A stretch of DNA of 64,000 nt from Amyelois transitella (lineage: Eukaryota; Arthropoda; Insecta; Lepidoptera; Pyralidae). Both the position numbers and the translations under genes were made by a program. Shown one piece after another: positions 25,921 through 55,916 of this stretch (positions are counted from its first letter, which is position 1; each line of letters starts with the position of its first letter). The DNA lies in contig NC_083526.1 of NCBI RefSeq assembly GCF_032362555.1, positions 2,128,001 to 2,192,000 on the forward strand, given 5' to 3'. The notes beneath the pieces were generated by a model. The model worked only from the letters and a program-made list of their open reading frames with translations. It made no database searches and was not told where the DNA came from.

Positions 25921-26188
25921 CCAGATTCTTAGTCTAGTTTATTCAGACTCTTAGATTACCTAGTTTATTGAAATGGGTTATATCAGACTCTTAAATTCGG
26001 TTATTGGAACGGGTCATACCAGACTCTTAAGATATATAATCGAAATGCGTCATAGCAGACTCTTAAGATAAGTCAATTGAAATTTGTCATAGCAGACATT
26101 TAGCTGAGTTTATTGAAACGTGTTACACCAGACTCTCAAGATATATAATCGAAACGCGTCCTAGCAGACTGTGAGATAAGTGAATGAG
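25921..26188. repeat. Minisatellite, about 36-bp unit x 7
   Basis: Diverged units of the form CAGACTCTTAAGATATATAA TCGAAATGCGTCATAG, directly next to the GC-rich 140-bp array. Confidence 0.85.
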
Positions 26189-26189
26189 A

Positions 26190-27029
26190 AGACTGACTTG
26201 TGTCAGCGGTCGCGCGGGCGCTTGGCGAGCGGCGCGTGGTGGCCGAGCGTGACGAGCGCGGAGGCGAGCGCCAGCCCGCCCAGCGGCGGCGCGCGGCCCG
26301 TGCCGCCGTGGGCAGGCGCACCACCAGCGAGACTCACTTGTGTCAGCGGTCGCGCGGGCGCTTGGCGAGCGGCGCGTGGTGGCCGAGCGTGACGAGCGCG
26401 GAGGCGAGCGCCAGCCCGCCCAGCGGCGGCGCGCGGCCCGTGCCGCCGTGGGCAGGCGCACCACCAGCGAGACTCACTTGTGTCAGCGGTCGCGCGGGCG
26501 CTTGGCGAGCGGCGCGTGGTGGCCGAGCGTGACGAGCGCGGAGGCGAGCGCCAGCCCGCCCAGCGGCGGCGCGCGGCCCGTGCCGCCGTGGGCAGGCGCA
26601 CCACCAGCGAGACTCACTTGTGTCAGCGGTCGCGCGGGCGCTTGGCGAGCGGCGCGTGGTGGCCGAGCGTGACGAGCGCGGAGGCGAGCGCCAGCCCGCC
26701 CAGCGGCGGCGCGCGGCCCGTGCCGCCGTGGGCAGGCGCACCACCAGCGAGACTCACTTGTGTCAGCGGTCGCGCGGGCGCTTGGCGAGCGGCGCGTGGT
26801 GGCCGAGCGTGACGAGCGCGGAGGCGAGCGCCAGCCCGCCCAGCGGCGGCGCGCGGCCCGTGCCGCCGTGGGCAGGCGCACCACCAGCGAGACTCACTTG
26901 TGTCAGCGGTCGCGCGGGCGCTTGGCGAGCGGCGCGTGGTGGCCGAGCGTGACGAGCGCGGAGGCGAGCGCCAGCCCGCCCAGCGGCGGCGCGCGGCCCG
27001 TGCCGCCGTGGGCAGGCGCACCACCAGCG
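26190..27029 (-). repeat. Six 140-bp GC-rich tandem copies of the dsd terminal exon 3' end
   Basis: Each unit repeats the last part of exon 26 (CCCACGG...RPRDR-TGA) plus CACAAGTGAGTCTCGC. By eye the six units are identical to each other but lack one G of the genuine exon (CCGTGCCGCCGTGG versus CCGTGCCGCCCGTGG), so they are frameshifted. They lie in the presumed 3' UTR or downstream of dsd. Confidence 0.93.
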
Positions 27030-27042
27030 AGACTCACTTGTG

Positions 27043-28984
27043 TCAGCGGTCGCGCGGGCGCTTGGCGAGCGGCGCGTGGTGGCCGAGCGTGACGAGCGCG
27101 GAGGCGAGCGCCAGCCCGCCCAGCGGCGGCGCGCGGCCCGTGCCGCCCGTGGGCAGGCGCACCACCAGCGACAGCACGGCCGCGCGCCCGCCCGCGCACG
27201 GCTCCAGCGCCACCGGCGCCGGCGGCCCGCTGCCTGGGGTGGCATAACATGAAACACGTATAGTGGGAGTCTGATCTGGGGCGTGTACCGCAGGATGTGT
27301 TTACACAAATATGTACTTATATAGATATAATTCTATCAATAATATAATATTATCCATAATAGGCTATTTGACACTATTGAAAATATGCTACGAATTGTGG
27401 TAATCCTATTAGATAATAATATAACAGAACATGTTTTACTTTCATTTGTACTAAAATAAGCATATTTTTGACGATTTATCGTTTAAAAAATACAATAATT
27501 TTTAAATTCTTTTGAAAGACCGAAACGCTCTGTGATTGGTTACAACTCCGGTGACGTCACACGCAAGTAAACGTCAACTCCTCCTGTGTAGGTAGTTTGT
27601 GTGTTATTAATGTTTTATCCCAGATATTAAGCTATTTCGTGACATTGAACTATTTCAGCTTCATTTTATTACTTTAGTGAAATAAATTCCTGGTGTTTGT
27701 ATTCAAAATGGACAAAAATTTTGTGCGTGCCGACAACACAAACCTACCTGAGATTGATGCATTTATGGTTGCACTTTTCTTCAAAAACAACGCGGATTAT
27801 TATGGTGCAGAACTAAAGAATGTAAAAACAGCTGTGTAAGTATTTTAAAGAAATTATTTATTTAGAAATCTTTATGCCATTTCACGCAAAAATTTCGCAG
27901 AATTTTATTTTATAGGATATTTTTTATTGTTTGCTATAACTCAAATATTGCCAGCATACTTACATCAAAATGATCTTCACACATAAAAACATTTGAATGC
28001 GATAAAATACTCTTTGGATCTCTTCGAGCCAACTGCAACCACTTCTATGTCTTATTGGATTCGTTGGAACAGACACAAACACTTTTTGCGGAGTTTTTTA
28101 TTGAAGTATTTGTACATTGTGTTACTACACACCATTTATAAACAATTTTGTTTGATAAATTGAGAGAAATATAATCAAAATCATCAGTTTGCTTGCGTGT
28201 GACGTCACACAGCGTCCGCCATTACTATGAGAGCGTTTTTGGCGCGCTTTTTAAATTTCAACCTTTATAATTCATTTTTTATTATAAATACTGCGTATTT
28301 CTTGGAAATATAAATAAAGTGTGTTTATTATATCATAAAGAATAATTTTAAACCATTTCTAAAAAACAGTCAAATAGCCTATTATGTGATGTCCCAAAAA
28401 AAATTGTAAGGCACTTAAACTGGGATTTTTAGATAACACTAAAAATTCAAAATTCTTAAACAAAATATCTCCTACGTGTCGCTTACAATGTCGGCCTTTA
28501 GTTCGCAAGTTCAAATTATAGGACAAACAGCTTAAATATTTTTGCGCCATGAAAATTTTACTTCTAATTAAATGTAACAATATTTTCGCACCATAAATAT
28601 ATAGGACTAGAGACCGCCCGCGACTTCGGCCGCATGGAAACCCTATCAATCTGAAACTCTGGGCTAAAAAGTAGCATATGTGTTATTCTGGGTCTTTAGG
28701 TCTACCCACGTACCAAATTTCATCGTAATCGGTTCATTAGTTTTTGCGTGAAAGAGTAACAAACATCCATACTGACATCCTGACATACTCACAAACTTTC
28801 GCATTTATAATATTAGTAGGATAGATGTAGTAATACTGTAAGTATCAGTAAATCATTGGTCATCAAACTCACCTCCCCCCACCCAGCCCCGCTCCATCTC
28901 GACGCAGACCTGGCTGAAGGGCCGCGACGCCATTTGTTCCATTTCAACGAACAAACGCTGTCTTCTTCTGTATAAATCGTATTT
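27043..28984 (-). CDS. dsd: dsd exons 25-26: cytoplasmic tail
   Basis: Residues 1162-1261. Exon 25 (28873-28984) gives KYDLYRRRQRLFVEMEQMAS then RPFSQVCVEME; the MASRPF block is an attractin hallmark next to the membrane. Exon 26 (27043-27233) gives PVALEPCAGGRAAVLSLVVR, GLALASALVTLGHHAP and ends KRPRDR with TGA at 27043-27045, matching the conserved attractin C-terminus. Exon 26 is extremely GC-rich. A donor-like AAGTGAGT follows the stop by a few bases, so a 3'-UTR intron is possible. The tail ends about where other attractins do, so the protein looks complete. Confidence 0.9.
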
Positions 28985-31900
28985 CTGAAAAAAAAAATAT
29001 AACAATACATAAGTAGGTATAGTGCCGTGTGGTGCCGACACCAATGGAAAAAGTATAGGACAACTCTTTTGAGCCAAACAGCTGCACGTGGCCTAACAGC
29101 CTTTTCAAGACTGTTGGCTCTGCCTACCTTGCAAGGGATATAGACGTGATTATATTTATGTATGTATAACAAAACAATACGATTATGAGTGTCGGCGGAC
29201 GAGTATCTAAGGTAACTGACTCGTAATTTAAATAATTTTTTCATTCATTTGAGTGTGAAAGTTACATACATTTGTTTGAATGCCAACCAATATTCTTTCT
29301 TTTCGGTATGAGAATACAAAAGTCAACAACTAAAATGCAATCAGGAATAAGTTATGTTTCCAAAAGCGTAATAGCTTAACGAATTTTGTTGTATACGATT
29401 AAATATAATTTATTTTAAGGAAAATATGGTAAAGATAAGAGATATACCTGTTTTATTTTCCATAAAGCCGCCGCCACCAAAAGCAGCAGTAGAAAGCACG
29501 ACGAGAAAGTGATGAAGAATTGCTGCAGATTCAACTTCGGATACTGAAACAATAGGTTATTTTAAGGTTCTAATTCTATGTATGTATACCGTGTGGTTCC
29601 CGGCATTGAAGAATAGGGCCGCTCTATCTCTTTCCCATGGTCATAAAAGGTGATTAATGGATAGGCTAATAAACTTGGCGTTATTCTTGTAGACGATGGG
29701 CTAGCAACCTGTCACTATTTGAATCTCAATTCTTATCATTAAGTTATACACCTAACAAGAGAACGAACAGCTAACAGCCTAACAGGAAATACCTAGCATG
29801 GTAAAAATGAAGTTAGGTAAGGCCACTAACTTTGGTAATAGTTAGGGGTGACTAAGGGACTCTTTGGTGGTCAGGGGCATTACATACCTGTGAAAACGAG
29901 ATTTGTATCCACAGCGGTGGACGGAAATCGTACACGTATACGAAGAAAGTCGTCAGCGTAACGTTGTCTTCGACGCCGAAAGCGTGCTCCGATTTTGCGA
30001 ACCTGTAATGGAAAGTTCTGTAGGTCGTTATGTTGAATTTTAATTTTTAGATTGATAGTTGTTAAAAACTTGTTATATTGTTAGGATTTTAGATATGAGA
30101 GTGCCGTGTGGTTCCCGATACCAATATAAAAAGAATAGGATCCCTCCATCTCTTTCCCATGGATGTCATAAAAGGCGATTGGCTAGCAACCTGTCACTAT
30201 TTGAATCTCAATTCTATCATTAACCCAAATAGTTGGCCTTTCAGTCTTTTCAAGAGTGTTAACTCTATCTACCCCAGAAGGGAAACAAACGTGACCACAT
30301 GTATGTATGTATAAAAAACTCGCTTGTATCTGAAATTGGTACAGTTGACGTCACTGAATAGCGTCCTCTCCGCGGGATCGGCCCGGCTGCGTACAGTGAG
30401 GTTCATGCGAGCGTGTGCCGAGCATGTGATACTGAAGTCGGCATCTACATCGACATTATACCCTAACGACTCTGAAAGCACTTGTATCCATGGCCGTAAA
30501 CTTACAAGTGACACTTCAAAGACTTATATCCACGGCCGTAAAACTCACTTGTATCTGAAGTTGGTACAGTTGACGTCACTGAACAGCGTCCTCTCCGCGG
30601 GATCGGCCCGGCTGCGTACAGTGAGGTTCATGCGAGCGTGCGCCGAGCATGTGATACTGAAGTCGGCATCTACATCGACAGTATACCCTAACGACTCTGA
30701 TAGCACTTGTATCCATGGCCGTAAACTTACAAGTGACACTTCAAAGACTTATATCCACGGCCGTAAAACTCACTTGTATCTGAAATTGGTACAGTTGACG
30801 TCACTGAACAGCGTCCTCTCCGCGGGATCGGCCCGGCTGCGTACAGTGAGGTTCATGCGAGCGTGTGCCGAGCATGTGATACTGAAGTCGGCATCTACAT
30901 CGACAGTATACCCTAACAACTCTGATAGCACTTGTATCCATGGCCGTTAACCTACAAGTGACACTTCAAAGACTTATATCCACGGCCGTAAAACTCACTT
31001 GTATCTGAAATTGGTACAGTTGACGTCACTGAACAGCATCCTCTCCGCGGGATCGGCCCGGCTGCGTACAGTGAGGTTCATGCGAGCGTGTGCCGAGCAT
31101 GTGATACTGAAGTCGGCATCAACATCGACATTATACCCTATCGACTCTGAAAGCACTTGTATCTATGGCCGTAAACTTACAAGTGACACTTCAAAGACTT
31201 ATATCCATGGCCGTAAACTTACAAGTGACACTTCAAAGACTTTTATCCACGGCCGTAAAACTCACTTGTATCTGAAATTAGTACAGTTGACGTCACTGAA
31301 CAGCGTCCTCTCCGCGGGATCGGCCCGGCTGCGTACAGTGAGGTTCATGCGAGCGTGCGCCGAGCATGTGATACTGAAGTCGGCATCTACATCGACATTA
31401 TACCCTAACGACTCTGAAAGCACTTGTATCCGTAGCCGTAAACCTACCAGTGACACTTCAAAGACTTTTATCCACGGCCGTAAAACTCACTTGTATCTGA
31501 AATTGGTACAGTTGACGTCACTGAACAGCGTCCTCTCCGCGGGATCGGCCCGGCTGCGTACAGTGAGGTTCATGCGAGCGTGCGCCGAGCATGTGATACT
31601 GAAGTCGGCATCTACATCGACATTATACCCTAACGACTCTGAAAGCACTTGTATCCGTAGCCGTAAACCTACCAGTGACACTTCAAAGACTTTTATCCAC
31701 GGCCGTAAAACTCACTTGTATCTGAAATTGGTACAGTTGACGTCACTGAACAGCATCCTCTCCGCGGGATCGGCCCGGCTGCGTACAGTGAGGTTCATGC
31801 GAGCGTGTGCCGAGCATGTGATACTGAAGTCGGCATCAACATCGACATTATACCCTATCGACTCTGAAAGCACTTGTATCTATGGCCGTAAACTTACAAG

Positions 31901-34900
31901 TGACACTTCAAAGACTTATATCCATGGCCGTAAACTTACAAGTGACACTTCAAAGACTTTTATCCACGGCCGTAAAACTCACTTGTATCTGAAATTAGTA
32001 CAGTTGACGTCACTGAACAGCGTCCTCTCCGCGGGATCGGCCCGGCTGCGTACAGTGAGGTTCATGCGAGCGTGCGCCGAGCATGTGATACTGAAGTCGG
32101 CATCTACATCGACATTATACCCTAACGACTCTGAAAGCACTTGTATCCGTAGCCGTAAACCTACCAGTGACACTTCAAAGACTTTTATCCACGGCCGTAA
32201 AACTCACTTGTATCTGAAATTGGTACAGTTGACGTCACTGAACAGCGTCCTCTCCGCGGGATCGGCCCGGCTGCGTACAGTGAGGTTCATGCGAGCGTGT
32301 GCCGAGCATGTGATACTAAAGTCGGCATCGACGTCTGGCTTCACTGGCGCGTTCCGGAAATTAATGGCGGAAAGGTGGCGGTCTTCCTTCTTTGATAGGT
32401 TGAAGGTGAATTGGTAGTCTACAGCTAGGTCGTCTGTGAAAAAAAAAAAGTCATCTTAAGGGGATGAAACAATAGAAGTAAAAACCATAGTCACGTCTAT
32501 ATCCCTTGTGGGTTAGAGAGAGCCAACAGTCTCTGCGTACTTAACTACCGAATGTGCCGTGTGGTTCCCGGCACCAATGTAAAAAAAAGAATAAGACCGC
32601 CCCAAATCTTTCCCGTGGATGTCGAAATAGGCGACTAAGGGATAGGCTTGTAAACTTGCGATTGTTCTATTGGCTAACAACCTGTCACTATTTCCAAAAG
32701 TCTTTTCGAGATTGTTGGCTCTGTCTACGCCGCAAGGGACATGATCATTTGGACGGATGGATGGATTGCAGATGTCACCATTCGTACGAATCGTTAGCAT
32801 ATCACTCACAGTAACAAGCGCCCTTGTTGTACACGTCCGCGTGGTAGTGGTTGGTGTTGTCGCACTTGTCGCAGCGGTCGCCGGCCAGCCCTTTGGTGCT
32901 GCAGTAGCAGCGGCCGGTGTCCGGCGCGCACGCAACCGCTTGGGCGTTGCATTCGCATGCTGGAAAAAGAAAAATAATAACACATACATAGTTACATACA
33001 GTCAGTCAGAGAGACAGCAATCTCGAAAAGATTGAAAGGCCACGTTCAGATGTATGGTTTAATGTCTATACTAATATTATAAAGCTGAAGAGTTTGTTTG
33101 TTTGTATGCTTGTTTGAACGCGCTAATCTCAAGAACTAACTGGTTCGAATTGAAAAATTCATTTTGTGTTAAACAGACCATTTATCGAGGAAGGCTCTAG
33201 TTTATATAACATCATACGCTGCAACTATAAAGGAGCGAAGAAATAATGGAAAATGTTAAAAAAAACGGGCAAAATTATTCATCTTTGAGAGAACTCATTT
33301 GTTTTTTTCACATTCCTGATAAAAGCGCGTTCAAACAAACAAACAAACAAACTCTTCAGCTTTATAATATACATACATACATACATAAAATCACGCCTCT
33401 TTCCCGGAGGGGTAGGCAGTGACTACCTCTTTCCACTTGCCACGATCTCTGCATATTTCCTTCGCTTCATCCACATTCATAACTCTCTTCATGCAAGCTC
33501 GGCTAATAATATAAGTATAGATAATCCAAAGACACACTTACGAGTGCAAACTCCTCCGTTCAGCGGGTTGCCCCAGTGGCCCGGGGCGCAGGTCTCGCAG
33601 TGGTCGCCTATGGCGCGGCCGCTGCAAGGCTGGACACACCTCGCCTGCGAGTCGCAGTACGAGTGACCGTTGCATTGGCACGCTGGACAGCGGGTGAAGT
33701 GCCATCTGAAAATGAGAATATTTTTTTTAATCTAATGCGTAAAGAACAATCTATCTAATATATTTAAACGAGATATTCTTGTATATATATAATCAGGATC
33801 TCGGAAACGGCTCCGACGATTTTCATGAGAGTTACAGATAAGGGGCTTTTCGGCTCAAGGAATCGATTTATCAAGGTCCTAGGTTCGAGAAAAGCTCGGT
33901 TCCCAAGATATATATGCAAAGCTCGGTCAACCGGGTACTATGATTAATTTGGATAAAAATATAATAAATTGCGACTGGGTATCAAGGTACAGTTGCAACT
34001 GATCTGCGTACAAAGTTAAAACGTGATATGAAAGTTCTACCTGGCGTTTGTAAGTATGTAAAGGTCACGTACATAACCAAAGGGGGAATCATGACGAACG
34101 CTTGCTCAATAGCCCTGAATTAAAATCAAAGCAATTCCATATTAGCATACCCACTTAAATACCACAGGAATATAGTGCGTTCCATATATAAGCAGCGCAC
34201 ACGGCGAGAGCTGGCTGAAAACACAAGCACAAAACATTCAAAAAAAGAACACTAACCGATGTTGGGCGCAAACTCTGGGCGCGTGTGGGCGCCTGCTCCC
34301 CCCGGGCATGCACACCCCGCGCCCCCCGCCCGCGCCGTCGTCGCACCAGCCGCAGGCGGGCTCGGCGCGGCAGAGCGAGCACGACACGTGATAGATACTT
34401 AACTACCTAGATAGTCACCAAAGAAACAATAACGAAACATTTAAAATTAGAACACCATACCTGCATACCCACTTGAATACCACAGGAGCATAACGCGTTT
34501 CTTTTGTAAACGCACACGGCGAGAGCTGGCTGAAAACACAAAAACAAAAACACTAAAAACAGTTCAAAATAAGAACACTAACCGATGTTGAGCGCAAACT
34601 CTGGGCGCGTGCGGCCGCCTGCTCCCCCCGGGCATGCACACGCCGCGCCCCCCGCCCGCGCCGTCGTCGCACCAGCCGCAGGCGGGCTCGGCGCGGCAGT
34701 GCGAGCACGACACGTGATAGATACTCAACTATCTAGATAGTAACCAAAGAAAAATTAGAATACCATACCTGCATACCCACTTAAATACCACAGAAATATA
34801 GCGCGTTTCATATATAAGAGCTGGCTGGAAATTCAAACACAAAACAGTTCAAAAAAAGAACACTAACCGATGTTGAGCGCAGACTCTCGGAGCATGCGGC

Positions 34901-37900
34901 CGCCTGCTCCCCCCGGGCATGCACACCCCGCGCCCGCCGCCCGCGCCGTCGTCGCACCAGCCGCAGGCGGGCTCGGCGCGGCAGTGCGAGCACGACACGT
35001 GCGCGCCGCAGCCGTGCGCCGCGCCGCACGAGGCCGCGCCGCCGCCCGACGTGGACCACGCGCGGCACCCGCCCAGGGGGAACGAGGCGCCGTACGCGTT
35101 CTGGAATTTGTGTAAATATTATTATTATTATCTTTAGGACCAGCTCTTGCGTAGTGGTGTTAGTTACGTTTATCACTACATAGTATAAAACAAAGTCGCT
35201 ATTATAGTCTGTTTGTCTGTATGCTTAAATCTTTAAAATTACGCAACGGATTTTGATGCGGTTTTTTGTAACAGGTAGAGTGATTCAAGAGGAAGGTTTT
35301 TATGTATAATTTTTTCCGAATTTTGCACCCGTGCGAAGCCGGGGCGGGTCGCTAGTTTTCAGATAAGTGCCTTTATATGACCATGATCATCTAATCCGTA
35401 ATTGCCGGTTGCCGGCAACAATACAAAAGAGAATAGGACCACTCCATCTCTTTCCCATGGATGTCGTAAAAGGCGACTAAGGGATAGGCTCATGAAATTG
35501 CGATCCTTTTTTTTTAGGCGATGGGCTAGCAACCTAACACTATTTGGATCTCAATTCCACCATTAAGCCGAGCAGCTGAACGCGGCCATTCAGGCTTTTC
35601 GGGACTATTGGCTCTACCCCGTAAGGGATATAGACGTGGATATATGTATGTATGTATTATTTTCATGCAAGCTTTTTTTTGTAAATTATAATTTGAGTGC
35701 ACTTGCCTGGCGGTTAGCAAAATGAGGCCAAAGGTTGTGTTTCGCAAACTCAAATAATGCCTATTCTACTCTTGCTTTGAAAATTGAAACGCAAGGCTCT
35801 AGATGAAACACAACTCGGATGACCATGTTGTATAGTTTCGAGGCCGCCTAAGCCGAATGAATGGATAATGAAGAATTAAACATTTTGACGGCCTCTGTGG
35901 CGCAGCGGTAGTACGCTTGTCTGTGACACCGGAGGTCCCGGGTTCAAATCCCGGCCAGGGCATAATGAGAAAAGAACTTTTTCTGATTGGCCTGGGTCTT
36001 GGATGTTTATCTATATAAGTATTTGTTATAAAATATAGTATCGTTGAGTTAGTATCTCGTAGCACAAGTTTCGAACTTACTTCGGGGCTCACTCAAACAG
36101 TGTTTTTAAAAAAAAAAGTAAACGTCTTTAAACAGAAATCAAAAAATGTCAACGGTATAGCATAAGACTAAATATCAATTTCTCTTTTCTCCCATCAAAC
36201 AATTTATAAAATCACAAAAATTTTACTAATCAGGTCTATGAACATGAATCAAACTGACCTTATCAACACACCGAGCAGCCGAAGCGCACCAGATACATTC
36301 CTCGGCCGTGCAATTAGCGCATGTACGGTATGTCGAACATGCCGCGCTGCAACCGCCCGCGCTAGACACGCTCCTGAAAATTAAACATACGTAACTATAT
36401 AAATCACAATTTTTTATTTGTACAACCAAAAGGATTTTTAAACACTTATTTAAGTACATACATACATATGGCCACGTCTAAATCCCTTGCGGGGTAGACA
36501 GAGCCAACAGTCTTGAAAAGACTGATAGGACACGTTCAGCTGTTTGGCTTAATGATAGAATTGAGATTCAAATAGAGACAGGTTGCTAGCCCATCGCCTA
36601 AGAAAGAATCCCAAGTTTGTAAGCCTATCCCTTTTTCGCCTTTTACGACATCCATAGGAAAGAAATGGAGTGGTCCTATTCTTTTTTTGTATTGGTGCCG
36701 GTAACCACAAGGCACTTATATTGACTGAATTAAATTCGTTTCTCGCGATTTTTTAATAAGTTAAATTTAAAATAAAAGATACATCTGAATCCCATCAAAG
36801 CCATACAGTCTTATCAAGACTTTAAGATAAAAGCATGACCATACGTATTTCTGTACGCAAGGGATTTAGACGTGACTATATTTATGTATAAAAAAAATTA
36901 AATAATTACCTTATATCATCGGTGGAGTTAGCCGGCCTGCATTTAATACTGTCATAGTCCCAGTAACAAAGACGCGGACTGAGATCCTCCGTTGCCTGAC
37001 AAACGAAACGAACAATATACAGATAATTAGAACCGAAAAATAAAAAATATCTCTTTAATCAATATTAATTCGTATTAAGTAGTAACTACGTCTTCGTAAA
37101 AGGTAAAAATCTTTACACAAAAAATTAACTTTTATCCTTTGCTCCATTAAGACGCGACATTTGTAGCATTTAACTTTATTTAACCGATTAATTCCCACAA
37201 AATCAAACCCTGAAATAAATCTAAATGCATACATAAGAGTGATGCCTCTGATGGGCATAACAAGCTGCGCAGGAGTGGAATCGGCCGCACGCCTCCTTCG
37301 CAGTTTCTCCGCCGTTCGCGCCGCACTCTTCTATTGACAGCGCCATCTGTTGACAAAAGTATGGAATTTTGATAAAGATTACTCATGTATGTATGTCAAA
37401 TATATAATCACCCCTATATCACTTGCGGGGAAGACAGAGCCAACAGACTTGAAAAGACTGATGGGCCACGTTCAGCTGTTTGGCTTAATGATTCTCTTTC
37501 CCATGGATCTTGTAAAAGGCGACTAAGGGATAGGCTTACAAACTTGTGATTCTTTTCTAGGCGATGGGCTAGCAACCTGCCACTATTCGAATCTCAATTC
37601 TATCATTAAGCCAAACAGCTGAATGTGGCCATTCAGTCTTTTCAAGACTGTTGTCTCTGTCTACCCCGCAAGGGATATAGACGTGACCATATATATGTAA
37701 AAGAGGAAAAGGGAAAGAGGCGTGATTTTATGTATGTATGTGTATGTATGTATTTAACTGAAAATCAGCGTATTGCTCTACACCAATAAATTCGTTGAGT
37801 TGCGACCTTTTTGTATTGCTGCTACTCACACCCTATTAATTTGTATTTCATATGAAATTGTAAATCGTGTGTAGCAAATAAATGAATTATCTATCTATCT

Positions 37901-37953
37901 ATATGTATGTATGTATGTATATATATATGTATATATATGTATATGTATATGTG

Positions 37954-38005
<52 letters not shown>

Positions 38006-50000: not shown

Positions 50001-53000
50001 TTTTACGCCATCCATGGAAAAGAGATGGAGTGGTCCTATTCTTTTTTGTATTGGTGCCGGGAACCACACGGCACATTGTAGTTTTAATCAGACACTTAAT
50101 CTATGCAGTATTACATCTATGTTAAAAAAATCTATCTAGATGAGGGTAAACTCAAACAAAAAATGACCGAACTTTTATACGTCGTTTACCATTCAAAAAT
50201 AGACCTTAATGCATTACAGTATAGCGCACAATGCTCAAATATTAAAATTTATTGTGTTTATTGTTGTACATCTATTTTCAAACTAACGGACGAATTTGTT
50301 GTGTTCTGATATTTTTTCAGCAGGGTTGTAGATCTATAAATATTACATCGGCGCCGAAAATTAATATGTAATACTAAAAGACTGCTTACCTGGACATAAT
50401 TTTTGATCACAGGCCACACCCACCCAGTCTGGTTCGCACTTACACGTGCCCTCTTCACATTCTCCATGACCTGAACCACAAATATTGACGTAATTATTGA
50501 ATTGAAGATATTTTAATACATATCTACTCAAAAGCTTCAAAAGATATTATTAGTCCACTAATTACCAACATTACAATAAAAGAAAGATTTTAATGATAGA
50601 AACAACCGTAATTTGACCATTAATTTCCTCACAAATCATTCGGTCCATTATAAATTCAATTCTTACAAATCACAACACGAAACTACCTACATACATATAT
50701 TGTAACATTTGCCTCTATAGCGGAGTTGCATCAGAGCCGATGTAGTCTGGCAAACCAGAACCAAGCCTAATATAGAAAGAAAAAAATACTAATTCCTAAT
50801 ATAGAAAGAAAAAATACTAGTTTTGACAAAACTTGAATAATTAAAACAATTAGAACACGCGTCATTAGACGGACACGAGTACGCCTCGTACGTCACGTTG
50901 AATTCCTCCATCGCGTACGCGTTCGTATGAGAAGCAGTGTAGATAGATACTCGTAGATAGATACTCGTAGATAGATACCTAAAACTCTTTATTGCACCAT
51001 AAGAGTAAAACACACAAAAAAGTGTAGTCTGTAAAGTGTAGCATGGCAGTGTTGGAACGACTACCCATTTCGACCTCAACAGAAGAACAATAACATAGAA
51101 ACTAACTTGAACAATTAGTACGCGCATCATTCGACGGACACGAGTACGCCGCGTACGTAACATTGAATCCTTCCATCGCGTACGCGTCGTCTGAGAAGAA
51201 GTGTAGCAAGGCAGTGCCGGAACGAGCGACGACTTGTCTCGTCCAGTCCGACTCTTCTCTGTCTAGGACTCCGCTGTAAAAGGGATTTTCTTTAGTAAAA
51301 TATAAATATTAATACTCGTACATTGCATATAATCACGTCTATATCCCCTGCGGGGTAGATAGAGCCAACAGCCTTAAAAAGACTGAAAGGCCACATTCAG
51401 CTGCTTGGCTTAATGATAGAATTGAGATTCAAATAGTGACAGGTTACTAGCCTGTCGCCTAAAGGAAGAATCTCAAGTTTAAAAGCCTATCCTTTAGTCG
51501 CCTTTTACGACATCCATAGGAAAGAGATAGAGTGGTCCTATTCTTTTTCCTTTTGGTGCCGGGAACTACAAAGAAAATATTGCTTTAAAGAAATTATTGC
51601 GTAGTTATTTACATACTAACAAAAAATACACACAAGCCAAACAAGAACTGAACAGTTACAATAAGGATGTTATAGTAACTCCATTATAATCACGTATATC
51701 AACAGGCCAAGAATCGTTACAGCAAACAAACCTTTCCATACCTTAATGACATCGGTTAGGGCTATTCACGAACTATAAAAGACTATGTCTTTGCTGTATA
51801 AGAAATATAAAATGAGGAAGAAAAAATGGTACATCACCTTCCGCCAATATACGCGCAGAATGTATAATTGGCTAGTGTACCAAGTGCTCTTAACAAAGAG
51901 GTTGGGGAGTAACAGTTATACCTTAGTGAAGATTTCTTTACTTTCTGTTGGCTCAAATGGTCTGATCAGGCGTAATTATTCTATCACCACTATTTATTTC
52001 GCCAAGCATGTATTTGAAGAAAGAAAAGCCAATTTTAAGGATACAAAACTACTATCTATTGGTCAGTTAAAACTAAATCAAATCCTATTGATCGAAATTA
52101 ATTCAAAATGTAACACACTCTATTATAATGCACAAGGCGTAACGATTAACGCCCTGTACATCCGTCATTGGCCGACATAGCTGTTGTGATTCAAATCAAC
52201 ACAAATCACCTCGCATTCAATATTTAACGCTTATGTGGACCGCGTGCAGTGTTAATCTTTTCATATACAGATGGTGTCAACATAATTATACTTTGGATAG
52301 ACAGAGCCCTGTTGGCTCTGTCTACCTTGCAAGGGATATAGACTACAAAATACTGATAGGCCACGTTTAGTTGCTTGGCTCACTGATAGAATTGAGATTC
52401 CTATAAAGTGACAGGTTGCTAGCCCGTCGCCTATAAGAAGAAACCCAAGTTCATAAACCTATCTTTTTTTCTAGGTGGGCAATGAAGGCGGTAAACCTTT
52501 TCGATGAAATTCTGCCACTTATACCTTACTTTCTATTCTGCATCTAACTAAAAGAGTCTGTATCAATATTCTTAACACAAAACTCATTAAAAAACTAACA
52601 AAAAAACTATTTTATCCACTTTCTGACCTAAGAAACAGCCAGTTACTGATTAGCCTTCACGCTATCCCCATCATACACATACAGATGGACCCACCCACCC
52701 CAATCGTGAAGCTCTGCAGCCTTATCCTGACGGTGGAAGCCGTGAGTCCAAACCTCAAACAAGATAAAGAAAAAAAAACTTAACTTTTTTTTCCATGCTC
52801 ACCTGTAAACAGCCAGTAACTTCTCCGCCCTCACGCTATCCCCATCGTACACATACAGATGGTCCCACCCACACTCAGTCGCGAAGCTCTCCAGCCTGAT
52901 CCTGATGGTGGGCGCCGTGGGGCCGAGCCACGGAGGCGCTAGCAGCCACGAGCATTGCGTTGAGACGCTATAATTTCCAGGGCCATCGGTTATTATGCCC

Positions 53001-55916
53001 GTGGGATCTGTCAACCTGGAATACGAAAGTTTATTTTTTACTCAATGGCAATTTGTTCTGAAATTTGACGTAGATTTTTTTTTTTCTATTTTACACAGAT
53101 TAAAACATAGTCCAACTTTTTGTGATTATAATTAATTATGAAGTTTTATTTAGATAAATAAATCTGACATAATAACTGAGAATTAAATTTGGAATAGTCT
53201 TTGAGAGAGGCAGAAGAATAAATTAAGCAAATGGATTTCAATCTTTAGTTAAACACCTAATGCAATACATAGAATCACGTCTTTATCTATATAGGGTAAA
53301 AAGAGGCAACAGTCTCGAAAATACTGAAGGGCCACACAGCTGTATGGCTTAATGACGGAATATGACATTCATATAGTGACAGGTAGCTAATCCATCGCCT
53401 CAAAGAAGAGTTTTGATCTGTATGGAAAGCTAGCACACACTATGTTTTTTTCTTAACATAGTAAACCAGCAAGGGAGCATCCATACTGTATGTAACTAAC
53501 TATTATAACTGTATGAACTAAATTTTGCTAAGTGGCAATGGAATGCAGGTTAATGTGCATTGTAATGTTTAGCAGACATTCATTTGAATGTTGTGTGTAT
53601 AATGCCCTGAATGTCACGAAGAGAACATATTTTTTTTTCTGCAACTGATAAATTTTAATTTATGCAACCGAACAAATATTACTAAGATATAGAAATGTGT
53701 AATTAGACATGTTTTATTCATTTTAAATTCTAATTACAATGTATGGAATGCATGTGCATACCTAACTTAGTTTTATCTATGACTAGTTTTTACTTGCGGC
53801 TTCGCGTTTTTAATGCCATCTACAAACAAAAACAGGTTTTTCGCAAATCCCACGGGAAATTTAGTTTTTGTGAGCCAGCTTCTTCGCAACGTTTTATCTC
53901 GCTTCCCTGACACTATCATAATTAAAACTAAAAACCATTCAAAATAGCATATGAAAAAGGTTTAAAGGTGACAAAAACATTGTTTTGTTGTTTAATTTAT
54001 AATTGTGAAATGTGTTAGCACAATGTGACGGAGATGAAATTACTGAGTCAATAAGTCAAGGACTTTTACAGAGAGTCTTAATGCTACTTAGAGTTTTTAA
54101 TTTACTACTTTGAATTTGGTTTGAAGTAATATTTCTAAATGAAAGTATGCCAAATTAGTTTTTGGAAAACATTGTTAAGAAACCTGCAAATTCAGGCAAG
54201 TTGTTGTGTAAATTCCCAAGCAAAGGTCAAGAAGGTCATTTGGGAATTGCTTCATGCAAGAACCTGACTCACCCAATCCAGGACAATAATCAAACATACA
54301 ACTTGGTCTCCTCTCCTGAAGTGAGGATGTGACCGGAAATAACAAGAAGAAGAGTTAAAACAGTTTTCTAACCAGTTATCCAGGCCACAGAAGGCTGCTG
54401 AAAATAACCCATTTGGCAAATACTAAGTATATTTAGAATGACTTTTTGGATGCAAAAAAATTGAAATAAAAAAGCTGGATAAGGTGACCTGCCACACCAT
54501 AAGAAACAAGTCTATATTATAAATGTGAAGATCAAAAGATTTTAATGGCGATGGGCTGGCACATAAAGGGCGAAGAAAAAACGGAGCAAGATAATCACTC
54601 AGTGGTAACCTAGAAAAGGAAAGATTAGTGAATTTTGCCGACTGACAAACAGATTATCTGAAAAATACGGCCAAACATAAATTATACCAATGAATTCAAT
54701 GAAGTTTTTAGTTTTACAAAAATCTGAATAAAGGTTTATTTATTTATTATTCATTTGAATAGTCTATGGTTGGTATTTTTAGTACTCAATAATGGACAAT
54801 TAAGTTTTCCTTATTATCGCTCTTTCAGTACCAATTATCACCAGACAAAATGTGAATCATAGTTGTAACCAGTGGCATAATATGCAATTAAAATTCCATC
54901 ATACATACAAATTCAAAACTTGTTAGGTTGTTTGCCCTGATTCATGGCTTGTAAAGGACGTAGGTACCTAATCTTTAAGATTGGACAAGAACAAACAAAC
55001 AAACAATTAATAAATTTTTCCTTTTTGAAAATTTGTATGCAGCATTGTATAGTGACTATTTTTATTAGGAAAGATATATAACAATTTCCTTAAAAAATAT
55101 AAAGCTAGTGTAATCAATTCAAATAACAAGAACCTAACTTATTGGATTGATCATTGTTTATCTTCCAGTTGCTTGAAGGTGTAGGTTTCTTCATGATGTT
55201 TCCCTTACCATAAGAACAATGAAGCTTATTTCAATAAAAGTATATGATAATTGATGGGTTAAGAATAAGGAAGATGTATATCTTGACTCAATTCTTAAAG
55301 GTTTTATCTCACCCTGGATTGGAGTAATGTAGGATTTTTAACAGGTGACCAAAAAATTTAAAGTCTAATAAGATGTTATTAGCCTTTAAATATTAGATAT
55401 AATGTTATGGGCAAACATCATATTAGAATAAATTTTTATAAACAAACTTATATTTGCCTTTGTCAATAAGTTTTTGCAATGAATGCCCATTTAAAACAAC
55501 CTTCGCGACAAGCTTAGGAGGAAACGAAGAAGCCAAAGAAGATAATTGGATAATCTTCTGCTTTCTCTCGAAAAATCGTGCTTGTTTTTCCTTACTTGTG
55601 TGTGACAAGGCGCGTTTGTCAAATAGGTCAGCGAACTATGTGGGCCTATACAAATTTTGGAAAACATGCTTTGTATCACTTACTTGACTTTCCCGCCGCA
55701 GTACTGGCACTCCGGGCCCTGCCAGCCCTCGTAACAAATACAAGTCTCATTTTTACATGCACCATTCAAACAGTTATGATCACTACACCTAGACAGAATA
55801 CCATTGCAAAACAATAACACTATAAGAACTGAACATAGAAACGGCGAGAACCACGACCATTTTCGTCTGTACTTAGATTTGAAGAGAAATAAGAACATTT
55901 GTAAGGATTCTACCAT
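27043..55916 (-). CDS. dsd: Attractin / distracted orthologue, 26 coding exons, 1,261 aa
   Basis: Single-pass transmembrane glycoprotein of the Attractin family; in Drosophila the orthologue is distracted, and vertebrate ATRN/ATRNL1 act in pigmentation, myelin and MGRN1-linked receptor turnover (family knowledge). Exons (window coordinates, read right to left): 55684-55916, 52803-53015, 51107-51273, 50390-50470, 49522-49786, 49103-49246, 48255-48400, 47434-47552, 46174-46323, 45675-45783, 44587-44704, 43689-43796, 40380-40527, 39527-39596, 38033-38145, 37233-37346, 36910-36995, 36259-36373, 34868-35100, 33542-33705, 32810-32959, 32208-32433, 29888-30002, 29448-29543, 28873-28984, 27043-27233. 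They sum to 3,786 nt with phase kept at every junction and AG/GT at every boundary. The start is the ATG at 55916 in the context CAAAATGG; an upstream in-frame TTG is ignored. Order: EGF, CUB, EGF, Kelch, PSI, laminin-EGF, TM, tail. I see no C-type lectin domain, which vertebrate attractins have. Confidence 0.93.
27355..28386 (+). mobile_element. 1,032-bp TIR transposon carrying its own coding exon
   Basis: Perfect 18-bp terminal inverted repeats, CATAATAGGCTATTTGAC (27355-27372 and 28369-28386). Inside, an ATG at 27708 (context AAAATGG) opens MDKNFVRADNTNLPEIDAFM and continues as FFKNNADYYGAELKNVKTA to a donor, GT|GTAAGT, near 27836. A CpG-rich promoter-like stretch with GTGACGTCACACGC precedes it and is mirrored near the right end (GCGTGTGACGTCACAC). 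The exon recalls the N-terminus of widespread insect proteins with a SWIM zinc finger and YqaJ-type nuclease; this is from memory and unverified. In dsd intron 25, antisense. Confidence 0.75.
27708..27836 (+). pseudogene. First-exon fragment of a transposon-borne gene
   Basis: About 43 codons from ATG to a phase-2 donor. No downstream exon is recognisable before the right TIR at 28369, so the copy is internally deleted or relies on an acceptor outside. If the donor is ignored, a stop (TAA) follows at once. Confidence 0.6.
28595..28826 (+). repeat. Interspersed repeat ending ATTATAATATTAGTAGGAT-type tail
   Basis: ACTAGAGACCGCCCGCGACTT to TTATAATATTAGTAGGATAG, a repeat style I know from Lepidoptera. 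Related GCAGCTTCGCCCGCG starts occur at 62755 and 53785. Confidence 0.65.
29448..32433 (-). CDS. dsd: dsd exons 22-24: membrane-proximal region and TM helix
   Basis: Residues 1016-1161. Exon 22 (32208-32433) begins DDLAVDYQFTFNLSKKEDRH and ends DVNCTNFRYK, the membrane-proximal beta-rich region of attractins. Exon 23 (29888-30002) gives FAKSEHAFGVEDNVTLTTFF followed by VYVYDFRPPLWIQISFSQ. Exon 24 (29448-29543) holds the transmembrane helix FITFSSCFLLLLLVAAALW, followed by KIKQ as the stop-transfer. Eight copies of the 3' 122 nt of exon 22 follow it in its own intron; only the exon at 32208-32433 has the 5' half. Confidence 0.92.
29587..29760 (+). mobile_element. SINE-A copy, truncated
   Basis: In dsd intron 23, close to exon 24; breaks off at ATCATTAAGTTATAC. 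A shorter copy is at 29024-29165 near exon 25. Confidence 0.75.
30102..30312 (+). mobile_element. SINE-A copy at the end of the exon 22 array
   Basis: Its TATG tail (ending about 30312) abuts the last unit of the exon 22 tandem array, so the insertion marks the array's left border. Confidence 0.8.
30317..32207 (-). repeat. Eight tandem copies of the dsd exon 22 3' end plus intron start
   Basis: Unit starts (AACTCACTT or variant) at 30317, 30542, 30767, 30992, 31259, 31484, 31709 and 31976, with the genuine exon at 32201. Spacing is 225,225,225,267,225,225,267,225. The 267-bp units hold an extra 42-bp internal duplication (CTTACAAGTGACACTTC block). About 122 bp are exon-derived and 103 bp intron-derived. 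The donor AA|GTGAGT is kept in all but the leftmost unit (changed to GCGAGT). Exon changes are mostly silent, with one Thr-to-Met in two copies. Confidence 0.95.
32485..32750. mobile_element. SINE-A inverted pair in dsd intron 21
   Basis: A short minus-strand piece (32485-32535) followed by a plus-strand copy (32555-32750). Confidence 0.75.
32810..33705 (-). CDS. dsd: dsd exons 20-21: laminin-type EGF pair
   Basis: Residues 911-1015. Exon 20 (33542-33705) reads CPACQCNGHSYCDSQARC and HCETCAPGHWGNPLNGGVC, a complete laminin-EGF. Exon 21 (32810-32959) reads CECNAQAVACAPDTGRCYCS, then GLAGDRCDKCDNTNHYH and GACYY, the second. The GHWGNPLNGG and TKGLAGDRC motifs correspond closely to the same positions in animal attractins (family knowledge). 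A MITE and a LINE tail sit in the intron between them. Confidence 0.93.
33074..33370. mobile_element. MITE with long TIRs
   Basis: About 45-50-bp inverted termini (ATATTATAAAGCTGAAGAG plus a GTTT run, then TGTTTGAACGCGCT). Related, partly deleted copies lie at 46372-46508, 44935-45195 and about 10925-11165. In dsd intron 20. Confidence 0.78.
33371..33506 (-). mobile_element. LINE 3' tail next to a MITE
   Basis: Starts directly at the edge of the 33074-33370 MITE. ATAATATA occurs on both sides (about 33365 and 33513), a likely 8-bp target duplication. Lies in dsd intron 20. Confidence 0.8.
34150..34780 (-). repeat. Two tandem copies of the dsd exon 19 3' end
   Basis: Exon-homologous parts at 34257-34390 and 34583-34716 (genuine 34868-35001); period about 315-325 bp. 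Both keep the frame (CRAEPACGWCDDGAGGGRG) and the donor CG|GTTAGT but have no good acceptor. Confidence 0.93.
34868..39596 (-). CDS. dsd: dsd exons 14-19: PSI/Cys-rich modules
   Basis: Residues 668-910. Repeated plexin-semaphorin-integrin-like cysteine modules: exon 15 (38033-38145) PLRCAAAESCAACTAAGCAW then CGACLTEPQYC; exon 16 (37233-37346) SIEECGANGGETAKEACGRF then CAACYAH; exon 17 (36910-36995) RLCYWDYDSIKCR; exon 18 (36259-36373) TCANCTAEECIWCASAARC; exon 19 (34868-35100) HVSCSHCRAEPACGWCDDGA. Exon 14 (39527-39596) is a 70-nt linker. In this region vertebrate attractins have a C-type lectin domain, but I cannot match one. Exon 15 ends at a weak donor (CAG|GTCACA) followed at once by a microsatellite. 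Confidence 0.87.
35173..35355 (+). mobile_element. Lep1-like non-autonomous Helitron
   Basis: 183 bp, 5' TCACTACATAG and 3' GCCGGGGCGGGTCGCTAG with a GC-rich 3' hairpin, inserted between A and T. Nearly identical to the element at 48058-48240. Confidence 0.82.
35407..35657 (+). mobile_element. SINE-A copy
   Basis: Near full length, in dsd intron 18, 50 bp beyond a Helitron. Confidence 0.8.
35887..36098 (+). mobile_element. tRNA-derived SINE (family B)
   Basis: GACGGCCTCTGTGGCGCAG head; the B box reads GGTTCAAATCC. In dsd intron 18. Confidence 0.87.
36462..36716 (-). mobile_element. SINE-A copy
   Basis: Near full length, sense to dsd in intron 17, about 90 bp from exon 18. A short plus-strand tail fragment follows at 36800-36890. 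Confidence 0.82.
37390..37700. mobile_element. SINE-A inverted pair in dsd intron 15
   Basis: The minus-strand 3' half (37390-37490) is joined directly to a plus-strand copy (37491-37700), so the shared ends are in inverted orientation. Confidence 0.8.
37895..38030. repeat. Compound (TATG)n/(TA)n microsatellite at the exon 15 donor
   Basis: Starts as (TCTA)n/(TGTA)n, becomes (TA)n with TG interruptions, and runs to within a few bases of the donor of dsd exon 15. Confidence 0.95.
38166..38325 (+). mobile_element. tRNA-derived SINE (family B), 5' truncated
   Basis: Begins at CTCTGATTGGCCTGGGCGGG, next to dsd exon 15; head and both boxes are missing. Confidence 0.8.
38705..38885 (+). mobile_element. 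LINE 3' tail, degenerate
   Basis: Contains the GAGCACCCGAAACCGCCG to AAGCGAAGGAAGTATGCAG segment with a short insertion (ATGATGAAAATGA) and a decayed end. Confidence 0.7.
38993..39235 (+). mobile_element. SINE-A copy
   Basis: In dsd intron 14; ends with a small duplication of the CTACCCCGCA block. Confidence 0.78.
40090..40350 (+). mobile_element. SINE-A copy
   Basis: Full-length copy in dsd intron 13, about 30 bp from the donor of exon 13. Confidence 0.82.
40380..49246 (-). CDS. dsd: dsd exons 6-13: Kelch beta-propeller and first PSI
   Basis: Residues 320-667. Kelch signatures are visible in each exon: SPRFAHSAVLYGDELLVYGG (exon 6), GGEVTNELWRIRLD (7), GHTAVLAYI and AFFGHSPHYGYLHTVQ (8), GFGHSALYDPLSRRVYVHGG (9), LFEYNVDTRVWKPLP with RYLHTAVLV (10), IMLIFGGNAHND (11), KRHTAIILGG (12) and FDGRLRSDALLFE (13). 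Exon 13 then runs into a PSI-type module (EKCSSYKTEVNCLSASHH, CVWK). Exon 12 (43689-43796) is short and easily missed; it is supported by phase (1+35 codons+2) and by the exact Kelch junction ILGG|FDGRL. The 2.7-kb LINE lies in intron 12. Confidence 0.9.
40545..40570. repeat. (TA)n microsatellite
   Basis: About 10 TA repeats, 20 bp from the acceptor of dsd exon 13. Confidence 0.85.
40614..43292 (-). mobile_element. 5'-truncated non-LTR retrotransposon (RTE-like LINE)
   Basis: Inserted in dsd intron 12 in the same orientation as the gene. The reading frame covers the C-terminal part of an AP endonuclease (IIMLGDFNGWVG; AGIDSDHLLV) and a full reverse transcriptase (CKNYRGISLLSVVGKLYAKV; AQAGFRKGMGCTDQV; TFVDLEKAYDRV; GVRQGCVASPWLFNL; LLYADDQVILAS). 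The C-terminal region ends SAYPSGKEA. A TAG at 41802-41804 splits the frame between CIAE and FLAKSQ; otherwise it is open from 43292 to 40638. The 3' end is a (TATG)n-type tail. A perfect 10-bp direct repeat, AAACAAAACA, flanks it at 40604-40613 and 43293-43302, so this is a single 5'-truncated insertion. RTE affinity is my judgement from motif style. Confidence 0.9.
44207..44462 (+). mobile_element. SINE-A copy
   Basis: Full-length copy in dsd intron 11. A roughly 60-bp stretch (CATTCGTCCACGATTTAGAT, 44105) recurs after it at 44488, consistent with a local duplication around the insertion. Confidence 0.8.
44683..44930 (-). repeat. About 120-bp tandem duplication including the exon 11 acceptor
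   Basis: The segment AATATTAACATT(A/G)TACCTGC plus a family-B SINE tail occurs twice. The second copy (from 44806) duplicates the acceptor and first about 15 bases of exon 11. Confidence 0.8.
45430..45660 (+). mobile_element. SINE-A copy split by another repeat
   Basis: The family-A body (45430-45498) is interrupted by an (AGAAT)n-headed repeat (about 45498-45590, with TTATTGACGTCACATCACTT), then resumes at AGCTGAACGCGGCC. The inserted piece looks like the 3' tail of another LINE read in reverse. Confidence 0.7.
45869..46127 (+). mobile_element. SINE-A copy
   Basis: Full-length copy in dsd intron 9. Confidence 0.82.
46690..46888 (+). mobile_element. LINE 3' tail
   Basis: About 200 bp from GACGAACGTATCTTGATTAA to the TATG tail, antisense in dsd intron 8. 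Confidence 0.82.
47195..47266 (+). mobile_element. LINE 3' tail, short
   Basis: Only the last 70 bp (GGTAGTCTCTGCCTACCCC to the TATG tail). Confidence 0.72.
47668..47844 (+). mobile_element. LINE 3' tail
   Basis: Starts at GTCCTGGTAAAGGGTCAGG. It has an internal local duplication around TGTATCGTGGTGATCGTGG. Confidence 0.82.
48058..48240 (+). mobile_element. Lep1-like non-autonomous Helitron
   Basis: Also 183 bp with the same ends; sits about 14 bp from the donor of dsd exon 7. Confidence 0.82.
48500..48974. mobile_element. SINE-A inverted pair in dsd intron 6
   Basis: A degenerate plus-strand copy (48500-48755) faces a well-preserved minus-strand copy (48756-48974) ending GGTGCCGGGAACCACACGGC. 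Confidence 0.8.
49263..49503. mobile_element. SINE-A inverted pair in dsd intron 5
   Basis: A minus-strand 3' part (49263-49390) joins a plus-strand 3' part (49391-49503), only a few bases from exon 6 on one side and 20 bp from exon 5 on the other. Confidence 0.75.
49522..50470 (-). CDS. dsd: dsd exons 4-5: EGF modules
   Basis: Residues 205-319. Exon 4 (50390-50470) carries SHGECEEGTCKCEPDWVGVA followed by CDQKLCP, a classic EGF. Exon 5 (49522-49786) begins DNCNAEYGAGSCTSAGCECT, a second Cys-rich module, then a Gly/Pro-rich linker (REGGDGRPSEQPPLNNPP), then GHVLLEHGEDLLRVGGETF, which starts the Kelch region. The linker is very GC-rich compared with neighbouring exons. Confidence 0.9.
49812..50075 (-). 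mobile_element. SINE-A copy
   Basis: Full-length copy in dsd intron 4, with a short internal duplication (GCTGAAGAAGAATGG). Confidence 0.82.
50845..51080 (-). pseudogene. Degenerate copy of dsd exon 3
   Basis: 50845-50945 matches the exon 3 3' half (AYAMEEFNVTYEAYSCPSND) and 51030-51075 matches its 5' half (AAGTGTAGCATGGCAGTG). They are separated by an insertion with three GATAGATACTCGTA repeats and a CTTTATTGCACCATAAGAG tail. The donor is altered (CAAGTTTTG), so it is unlikely to be spliced. Confidence 0.85.
51107..53015 (-). CDS. dsd: dsd exons 2-3: CUB domain
   Basis: Residues 78-204. Exon 2 (52803-53015) reads LTDPTGIITDGPGNYSVSTQ, then a CUB core with CSWLL, FATECGWDHLYVYDGDS and LLAVY. 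This is the attractin-type CUB with its calcium-site-like aspartates (YDGDS). Exon 3 (51107-51273) continues with SGVLDREESDW, LLHFFSDDAYAMEGFNVTY and the closing AAYSCPSNDARTNC, which passes into the next EGF. Both exons have a second, degenerate copy of their 3' parts immediately downstream (listed separately), so automatic annotation may pick the wrong exon here. Confidence 0.92.
51328..51570 (-). mobile_element. SINE-A copy
   Basis: Nearly complete copy in dsd intron 2, about 55 bp from exon 3. Fragments of the same family lie at 52285-52470 and 53265-53420. Confidence 0.8.
52625..52745 (-). pseudogene. Degenerate copy of the dsd exon 2 3' end
   Basis: Matches exon 2 at CACGCTATCCCCATC, ACACATACAGATGG and GAAGCTCT.CAGCC, with scattered substitutions and small deletions. 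Its donor position reads TTAG|GTCAGA. About 80% identical by eye, the oldest of the exon-tail copies. Confidence 0.85.
53421..55683. other. dsd intron 1
   Basis: No conserved exon seen; contains old repeat pieces (53785-53890, 54235-54310, 55135-55250). Confidence 0.6.
55684..55916 (-). CDS. dsd: dsd exon 1: signal/anchor segment and first EGF
   Basis: Residues 1-77. A short basic stretch (KSKYRRKW) is followed by a hydrophobic run (SWFSPFLCSVLIVLLFCNG, residues 21-39), so this is a late signal peptide or signal anchor. An EGF module follows, with cysteines in the pattern CSDHNCLNGACKNETCICYEG. The exon ends in phase 2 at AA|GTAAGT and joins exon 2 to give a lysine before LTDPTG. Intron 1, about 2.7 kb, is one of the longer ones. 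Confidence 0.9.

Follow-up and report, generated by a model that had tools for sequence, protein, structure and literature searches.

Introduction

The dsd locus of Amyelois transitella raises the question of why the 3' ends of several exons recur in the sequence that follows those exons, and whether such copies reflect a duplication mechanism biased to exon-intron boundaries, selection that tolerates only this type of copy (the two options of an earlier note on this DNA) or ordinary local duplication. Here we follow these copies from the gene model through their divergence, their predicted effect on splicing and their incidence in control genes.

The dsd gene and its genomic setting

The window, a stretch of 64,000 nucleotides (positions 2128001-2192000 of contig 22; assembly of 327 Mb in 33 contigs), holds a complete attractin-type gene on the minus strand. 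We built its model by hand from the sequence, requiring AG/GT borders and compatible phases, and thereby joined 26 coding exons into a CDS of 1261 codons (1261 aa) with a single terminal TGA; all 25 introns are GT-AG and the reading frame is open across all 26 exons. The predicted protein matches the Pfam domains Beta-prop_ATRN-LZTR1 (1.3e-76), GBD_ATRN (2.1e-41), EGF_LMN_ATRN (3.5e-13), CUB (1.3e-8) and PSI (8.9e-6). This domain content identifies it as an attractin, a type that we take to be defined by the set of EGF, CUB, attractin beta-propeller, PSI, laminin-type EGF and GBD-like domains, and to which the Drosophila gene name dsd (distracted) presumably applies. Comparison of the protein with the genome, in which 37 of 60 candidates were scored, returned no second dsd locus; one of the 38 listed protein matches lay outside the dsd locus, at 26% identity.

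Several other features share the window. Intron 12 of dsd has large, retroelement-like frames (40638-43331, minus), by appearance what we take to be a reverse-transcriptase retroelement. The coding pieces at 14.4-18.6 kb on the minus strand resemble those of a CAP/venom-allergen type gene; on the plus strand, a short gene of one exon (61329-61847) appears to be mitochondrial-ribosomal. Tandem-looking repeats at 13-19 kb were set aside as SINE and RTE-tail copies.

Partial copies of exon ends in dsd

Each of the 26 exons was aligned to 1 kb of flanking sequence on either side, with exons masked and 50 shuffles per test. A clear downstream partial copy was recovered for exons 2, 3, 19, 22 and 26 (Table 1), with scores of 134-251 against shuffled maxima of 22-63 (best of 50 shuffles each). 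Partial exon duplication thus extends into introns at 4/26 exons and beyond the stop codon at 1/26. On the upstream side only exon 11 rose above its shuffles (16 nt; score 27 versus 24); the marginal downstream matches of exons 7 and 18 (26 versus 23 and 22 versus 20; 16-18 nt) are taken as chance.

These results bear out much of what the earlier note had described. Alignment and repeat analysis give the same copy numbers (1, 1, 2, 8 and 6, in exon order), and the claimed range of identity, from about 80% to apparently identical, corresponds to about 82-86% for exon 2 and 100% for exon 26 bar one shared 1-nt deletion. The intact upstream copy and unharmed coding that it reported agree with the open, GT-AG-bounded gene model. 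Its exon-intron reading has to be amended for exon 26, which ends the CDS and has no demonstrated exon-intron boundary at its copied end.

The affected exons (213, 167, 233, 226 and 191 nt, in exon order) are longer than the others (Mann-Whitney p=0.003). Long exons may be hit preferentially because a reach of about 100-134 nt would copy shorter exons whole; the long exons 1 and 5 are without a copy.

Table 1. Coding exons, their partial copies and related repeats. Positions are those of the window except in the last two rows, which lie in control loci.
Feature	Position	Strand	Basis or remark
Exon 2 (CUB), coding copy	52803..53015	-	gene model, Pfam CUB
Exon 2 partial copy with donor region, decayed	52605..52744	-	exon positions 97-209/213
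Exon 3, coding copy	51107..51273	-	gene model
Exon 3 partial copy	50845..50942	-	exon positions 68-164/167
Acceptor-side tandem repeat, 115 bp x2.1, including first 16 nt of exon 11	44689..44928	-	
Direct repeat of ~104 bp flanking a SINE	44102..44585 (44484-44585 and 44102-44205)	-	
Exon 19 (PSI-like region, by eye), coding copy	34868..35100	-	gene model
Exon 19 copy c2, 134 nt, donor GTTAGT	34583..34716	-	
Exon 19 copy c3, 134 nt, donor GTTAGT	34257..34390	-	
Exon 22 (attractin GBD-like region), coding copy	32208..32433	-	gene model, Pfam
Exon 22 array, 8 copies	30315..32207	-	last 128 nt of exon with 97 or 139 nt of intron
Exon 26, last coding exon, TGA-terminated	27043..27233	-	gene model
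Exon 26-end array, 6 further copies, unit 140 bp	26190..27030	-	all 3' of the stop codon
L040 donor-side array	offsets 2775-3189; C24 near 2891.8-2892.2 kb	-	large gene with fn3 matches
L042 acceptor-side partial copy, 65-194 bp upstream	predicted exon offsets 5325-5522	-	

From decayed single copies to arrays

The copies of exons 2 and 3 are the most diverged. That of exon 2 is identical to its exon at 96/112 positions and carries 4 synonymous and 12 nonsynonymous differences, a stop and a 1-nt gap, whereas that of exon 3 is identical at 86/97 positions, with 5 synonymous and 6 nonsynonymous differences and a 1-nt gap. By eye, the exon 3 copy appears to be interrupted by an insertion of ~100 bp, with further copy sequence upstream of it at about 51030-51065. 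Both copies are consistent with neutral decay.

The downstream copy of exon 19 covers exon positions 100-233/233 (128/134 identical) and that of exon 22 positions 99-226/226 (124/128 identical). The donor of the exon 22 copies is GTGAGT in 7/8 and GCGAGT in the last. Units of 225 and 267 bp, both lengths divisible by 3, are mixed in this array and form a 717-bp higher-order pattern. A genome search in which 40 of 4527 candidates were scored gave no further exon 22 array. On the plus strand (30315-32417), antisense to the array, two frames stay open for 211 and 488 aa.

The exon 26 copies are nearly uniform: the downstream copy matches exon positions 63-191/191 at 128/128 positions, and all copies are 100% identical except for a 1-nt deletion common to them. 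The TGA of exon 26 lies 5 nt ahead of a GTGAGT 'donor', which in the last copy reads GTCAGT. As this stop precedes all six copies, the array lies outside any demonstrated exon-intron boundary; judged from the sequence, the repeats would form a CDS-end/3'UTR array unless an unseen intron exists, and a 3'UTR intron is possible. At most about 1 nt of common sequence is seen at the junction (by eye), which would be in keeping with end joining or slippage. Beyond the array, at 26008-26170, is a 36-bp tandem repeat with AATAAA motifs close by, which is probably within the dsd 3'UTR.

A proposed model of recurrent local duplication

The copies, their polarity, their graded divergence and the intact coding exon upstream of each are the observed basis of the reading that we favour. 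We consider it likely that the dsd copies arose by recurrent, mostly neutral local tandem duplications that are silent to splicing, some of which were later amplified. In each duplication one breakpoint would have lain within a long exon, at a depth of about 100-134 nt, and the second in the intron that follows it or, for exon 26, in the 3'UTR. The first copy would retain the acceptor, the exon and the donor, and the same exon would still be defined, while the downstream copies would leave with the intron. The duplications of exons 19, 22 and 26 would then have grown by unequal exchange or slippage, and those of exons 2 and 3 would have remained single and decayed. Shorter exons would give whole-exon copies, which are probably counter-selected. 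Acceptor-side events would also arise and would probably be purged at a higher rate, since a second branch point, tract and AG placed before exon sequence could be used in splicing and alter the mRNA. Two observations stand against a neutral reading and are considered below: the preponderance of synonymous changes in the exon 19 and 22 copies, and an overlap of the duplications with exons above that of random placement (p=0.002-0.007).

Synonymous bias in the exon 19 and exon 22 copies

Copy c2 of exon 19 differs from the exon by 6 synonymous and no nonsynonymous changes, and c3 by 8 synonymous and 1 nonsynonymous. The copy-specific changes among these are one synonymous in c2 and three synonymous plus one nonsynonymous in c3 (4S and 1N in total), with five more synonymous changes private to the coding exon itself. 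Six exonic sites vary among the eight exon 22 copies, five of them synonymous (all at the third position) and one nonsynonymous; two additional synonymous sites separate the coding exon from all its copies. Thus, 9/11 copy-specific changes in exons 19 and 22 are synonymous. The expected synonymous share is 0.22-0.35, varying with the mutation model, and with shares of 0.25-0.35 the excess gives p=0.0001-0.002. This contrasts with the decayed copies of exons 2 and 3 and with an array in the control locus L040 (see below), where 1/4 of the among-copy changes are synonymous (1 synonymous, 3 nonsynonymous); pooled with L040 the count is 10/15 (p=0.0008-0.012). We regard the bias as suggestive, short of proof.

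Comparison of exonic and intronic parts of the units gives a mixed picture. In c2 the exonic part changed at 1/134 positions versus 10/90 in the intronic part (p=0.0006), whereas c3 shows no difference (4/134 versus 4/90, p=0.72), nor does the coding exon 19 (5/134 versus 4/90, p=1); pooling c2 and c3 gives p=0.003. For the exon 22 units, 6/128 exonic positions vary versus 11/91 intronic ones beyond the donor hexamer (p=0.07).

One account of the bias is that the exon 19 and 22 copies exchange sequence with the coding exon, through unequal crossing-over or conversion, or because new units keep arising at the position of the exon, with selection on the exon filtering an array whose copies are themselves functionless. 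This would explain why the bias appears in the multi-copy arrays and is absent from the single decayed copies, and the mixed units and higher-order pattern of exon 22 also speak for it. On the other hand, 11/97 columns vary between the exon 22 units in their intronic parts and sites private to the exon are present, both of which point to infrequent exchange; the changes number only 11 overall. We regard such exchange, which is compatible with mostly neutral duplication, as a possibility to be held tentatively. We would give a lower chance still, and call it rather unlikely, to the further proposal that these units form a coding-competent reservoir that exchanges with the coding exon or is occasionally spliced in, and hence bears a mark of protein-level selection, with nonsynonymous changes nearly absent and synonymous ones at about the intronic rate.

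Predicted splicing of the copies

Another explanation of the same bias would be that the exon 19 and 22 copies serve as alternative or added exons under coding selection. Donors are retained in 9/10 of these copies, and with splice-site matrices built from dsd itself they score 9.4 bits in exon 22 copies 2-8, 4.4 in the last copy and 7.2 in both exon 19 copies, against 3.2-11.0 bits for the real donors. The exon 19 copies have 0 gap columns in the exonic part versus 41-63 in the intronic part. On paper, exon 22 copies could add 108 nt in frame and exon 19 copies 141 nt, and a 190-nt exon could replace exon 22 in copies 2 and 9, whereas its frame is not open in copy 7. However, the in-frame acceptors are weak. 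We inspected those of both exon 19 copies and of 3/8 exon 22 copies (2, 7 and 9), and in these five copies the acceptors that would yield an in-frame copy exon score 0.3-3.5 bits; the 25 real dsd acceptors score 2.9-18.8 bits, with 24/25 at >=5.7. Stronger acceptors ahead of the exon 19 copies (6.2 and 9.9 bits) lead into closed frames, and a CAG|AG site in the exon 22 copies (7.0 bits; 4.2 in copy 7) would, if joined from exon 21, run into a TAG (phases read by hand). We therefore rejected the exon 19 and 22 copies as full tandem or mutually exclusive exons, the in-frame acceptors of the five copies inspected being weak and the stronger ones unproductive. Insertions of 36 or 47 aa would also probably disrupt such domains, and the L040 array is without the bias. 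Use as alternative exons thus seems improbable to us, with the synonymous bias leaving it a small chance.

None of the 25 modelled introns is bounded by copies, and the CDS is intact without a new intron. The ordinary mRNA is the product expected from these splice-site predictions, with inclusion of a copy via a weak site possible.

Exon 11 and other local repeats in dsd

The earlier note had listed exon 11 as the single comparable acceptor-side event. A tandem repeat is indeed present there, but only 16 nt of it are exonic, and dispersed repeats that match its unit occur in other parts of the window as well as in control loci. In intron 11, direct repeats of ~104 bp surround a SINE, one of them beginning at the exon 11 donor; they far exceed the 10-13 bp seen at several other SINE copies. 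A second pair, in intron 8, consists of 166/168-bp direct repeats (46508-46673/46882-47049; 83% identical) flanking an RTE-tail fragment. Either a long target duplication or a dispersed repeat that has diverged could account for it; a DNA comparison recovered that pair only. According to how this pair is counted, dsd has a total of 7 or 8 local duplications.

Long target-site duplications of SINE or RTE elements were considered as a general source of the repeats and rejected, as long flanking repeats occur at only 2/74 elements compared (76 found). Elements with repeats directly at both ends mostly have about 10-13 bp, and both of those with long flanking repeats sit in dsd introns (44206-44461 and 46751-46888).

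Donor and acceptor sides in dsd and control genes

When tandem duplications of the observed sizes are placed at random on the dsd geometry, 11.1% fall on the donor side, 10.6% on the acceptor side and 72.5% within introns, a donor:acceptor ratio of 1.04:1 from geometry alone. The side counts in dsd, tested two-sided, give p=0.22 for 5 versus 1, p=0.375 for 4 versus 1 and p=0.06 for 5 versus 0. Purely intronic duplications number 2/8 (p=0.007) or 1/7 (p=0.002) relative to random placement, leaving overlap with exons in excess; this excess may in part reflect detectability, copies of conserved exons being found more easily.

For comparison, we assembled 218 predicted control exons, of which 153 came from six ten-kb stretches and 14/30 fn3 loci (threshold 40; overlapping loci mostly, yet incompletely, removed) and 65 from 30 kinase loci (threshold 45; some loci overlapping). 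The sample is non-random, with one large gene supplying much of it. Training of the exon finder used dsd together with long ORFs from the fn3 loci. Recall was likewise scored on dsd, where the finder recovered 24/24 internal exons and made 12 extra calls: 3 retroelement frames, 7 exon 22 copies, 1 overlapping exon 26 and 1 unexplained. False exons among the 218 would lower the control rate.

No exon copies were found for the 65 predicted exons of the 30 kinase loci at threshold 45. Eight matches passed in the 153-exon part. The strongest (score 218) is a donor-side array in L040, whose 163-bp unit comprises the last 124 nt of a 198-nt exon, the donor and 39 nt of intron; two extra copies are complete and one is decayed. 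The second (71) is an acceptor-side copy in L042 that consists of an intron end and the first part of an fn3-matching exon, and is old and diverged, its acceptor AG apparently lost. The remaining six are weak (43-50), three upstream and three downstream, one of which (L039) resembles a neighbouring related domain. The rest of the window, outside the 218, adds 15 predicted exons with 1 weak match at threshold.

The L040 array and the copy of mirror type in L042 indicate that the pattern is neither one-sided nor specific to dsd. A rule of donor-side copies alone is not established by the dsd counts (5 versus 1, p=0.22) and is at odds with L042, as confinement to dsd is with L040. Of the two options in the earlier note, the idea that selection tolerates this type of copy is plausible as an inference. 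The other option, a mechanism aimed at exon-donor boundaries and tied, for example, to transcription or splicing, would draw on the five downstream copies in dsd against none or one upstream and on the excess overlap with exons. Yet the side bias is non-significant (two-sided p=0.06-0.38) and the counts are compatible with the geometry; both sides occur in the controls, where the weak matches are evenly split; exon 26 is without a demonstrated donor; and no motif is common to the breakpoints (by eye). Such a mechanism is thus not demonstrated, and we judge it quite improbable.

What does seem to set dsd apart is the frequency of these events. Affected exons number 5/26 in dsd versus 1/218 in the controls (Fisher 5e-5), or 4/25 versus 1/218 (4e-4), p-values that are post hoc in that dsd was picked for the pattern. 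Similarly, local duplications number 7 or 8 in 30 kb of dsd, compared with about 5 in about 165 kb of controls. The control figure was sorted by hand from 14 rows (172,017 bases, L039-L074, with some overlap), leaving aside SINE/RTE pairs, paralogous genes and loci that recurred, and includes the L042 copy in addition. Thus, dsd looks like a hotspot for exon-end duplications.

A false tandem expansion in the assembly would suit the near-identical, very GC-rich exon 26 array (exon GC 0.84), but it is highly unlikely as an account of the locus, as the copies of exons 2, 3, 19 and 22 have diverged from their exons, those of 19 and 22 differ in their intronic parts and 33 contigs per 327 Mb suggest long reads; the exon 26 copy number is the count in the assembly.

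Comparison with known systems

If recurrent, mostly neutral duplication is the whole account, dsd offers, within a single gene, a clean natural series of donor-side partial exon duplications of graded divergence. Such a series could help to explain why splicing takes the first of several identical donors and how exons give rise to repeats in introns. If selection instead acts jointly on the coding exon and the exon 19 and 22 copies, arrays in introns might at once safeguard and remodel the coding sequence, and the copies might lead gene annotation and the mapping of reads astray. A search of titles and abstract beginnings of the best-ranked results returned no account of donor-side partial exon arrays, and the attractin papers among the matches listed had nothing on exon-end copies.

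Minisatellites, or tandem arrays, are a recognised category of repeat, which the exon 22 (225/267-bp) and exon 26 (140-bp) arrays resemble; unlike minisatellites, the dsd arrays are seeded by coding sequence together with a donor or stop region. Copies that act as mutually exclusive exons comprise the entire exon, each with an acceptor and a donor, whereas the dsd copies hold only the 3' part of the exon and the donor. Local duplication of exons within a gene is what dsd shares with tandem exon duplication and mutually exclusive exons, as the latter are presented in the part of the account available (PMC9013439). The Rogers model, in the available part of its description (PMC4974935), likewise invokes a tandem duplication spanning an intron/exon boundary, but there the upstream intron-exon structure is copied and a new intron spliced; in dsd the copying involves the exon-donor side, and no added intron or exon is evident. 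The same portion of that source reports for potato RdRp that splicing can use a duplicated intron-exon border, altering gene structure (PMC4974935), and from the spliceability of such a border copy we infer why acceptor-side copies should be rarer. Closest are the partial, inter-boundary and intronic exon duplications classed by Exonize, where affected genes are reported to outnumber those with full-exon duplications (PMC12343006, as far as the available part of the account goes). As in the partial classes of that account, exon sequence in dsd is copied within the gene without full-exon structure; the same part of the account (PMC12343006) has nothing on donor-side polarity, tandem arrays or a hotspot gene. 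Partial exon duplication is known, and donor-side arrays in an apparent hotspot gene seem to be the new part.
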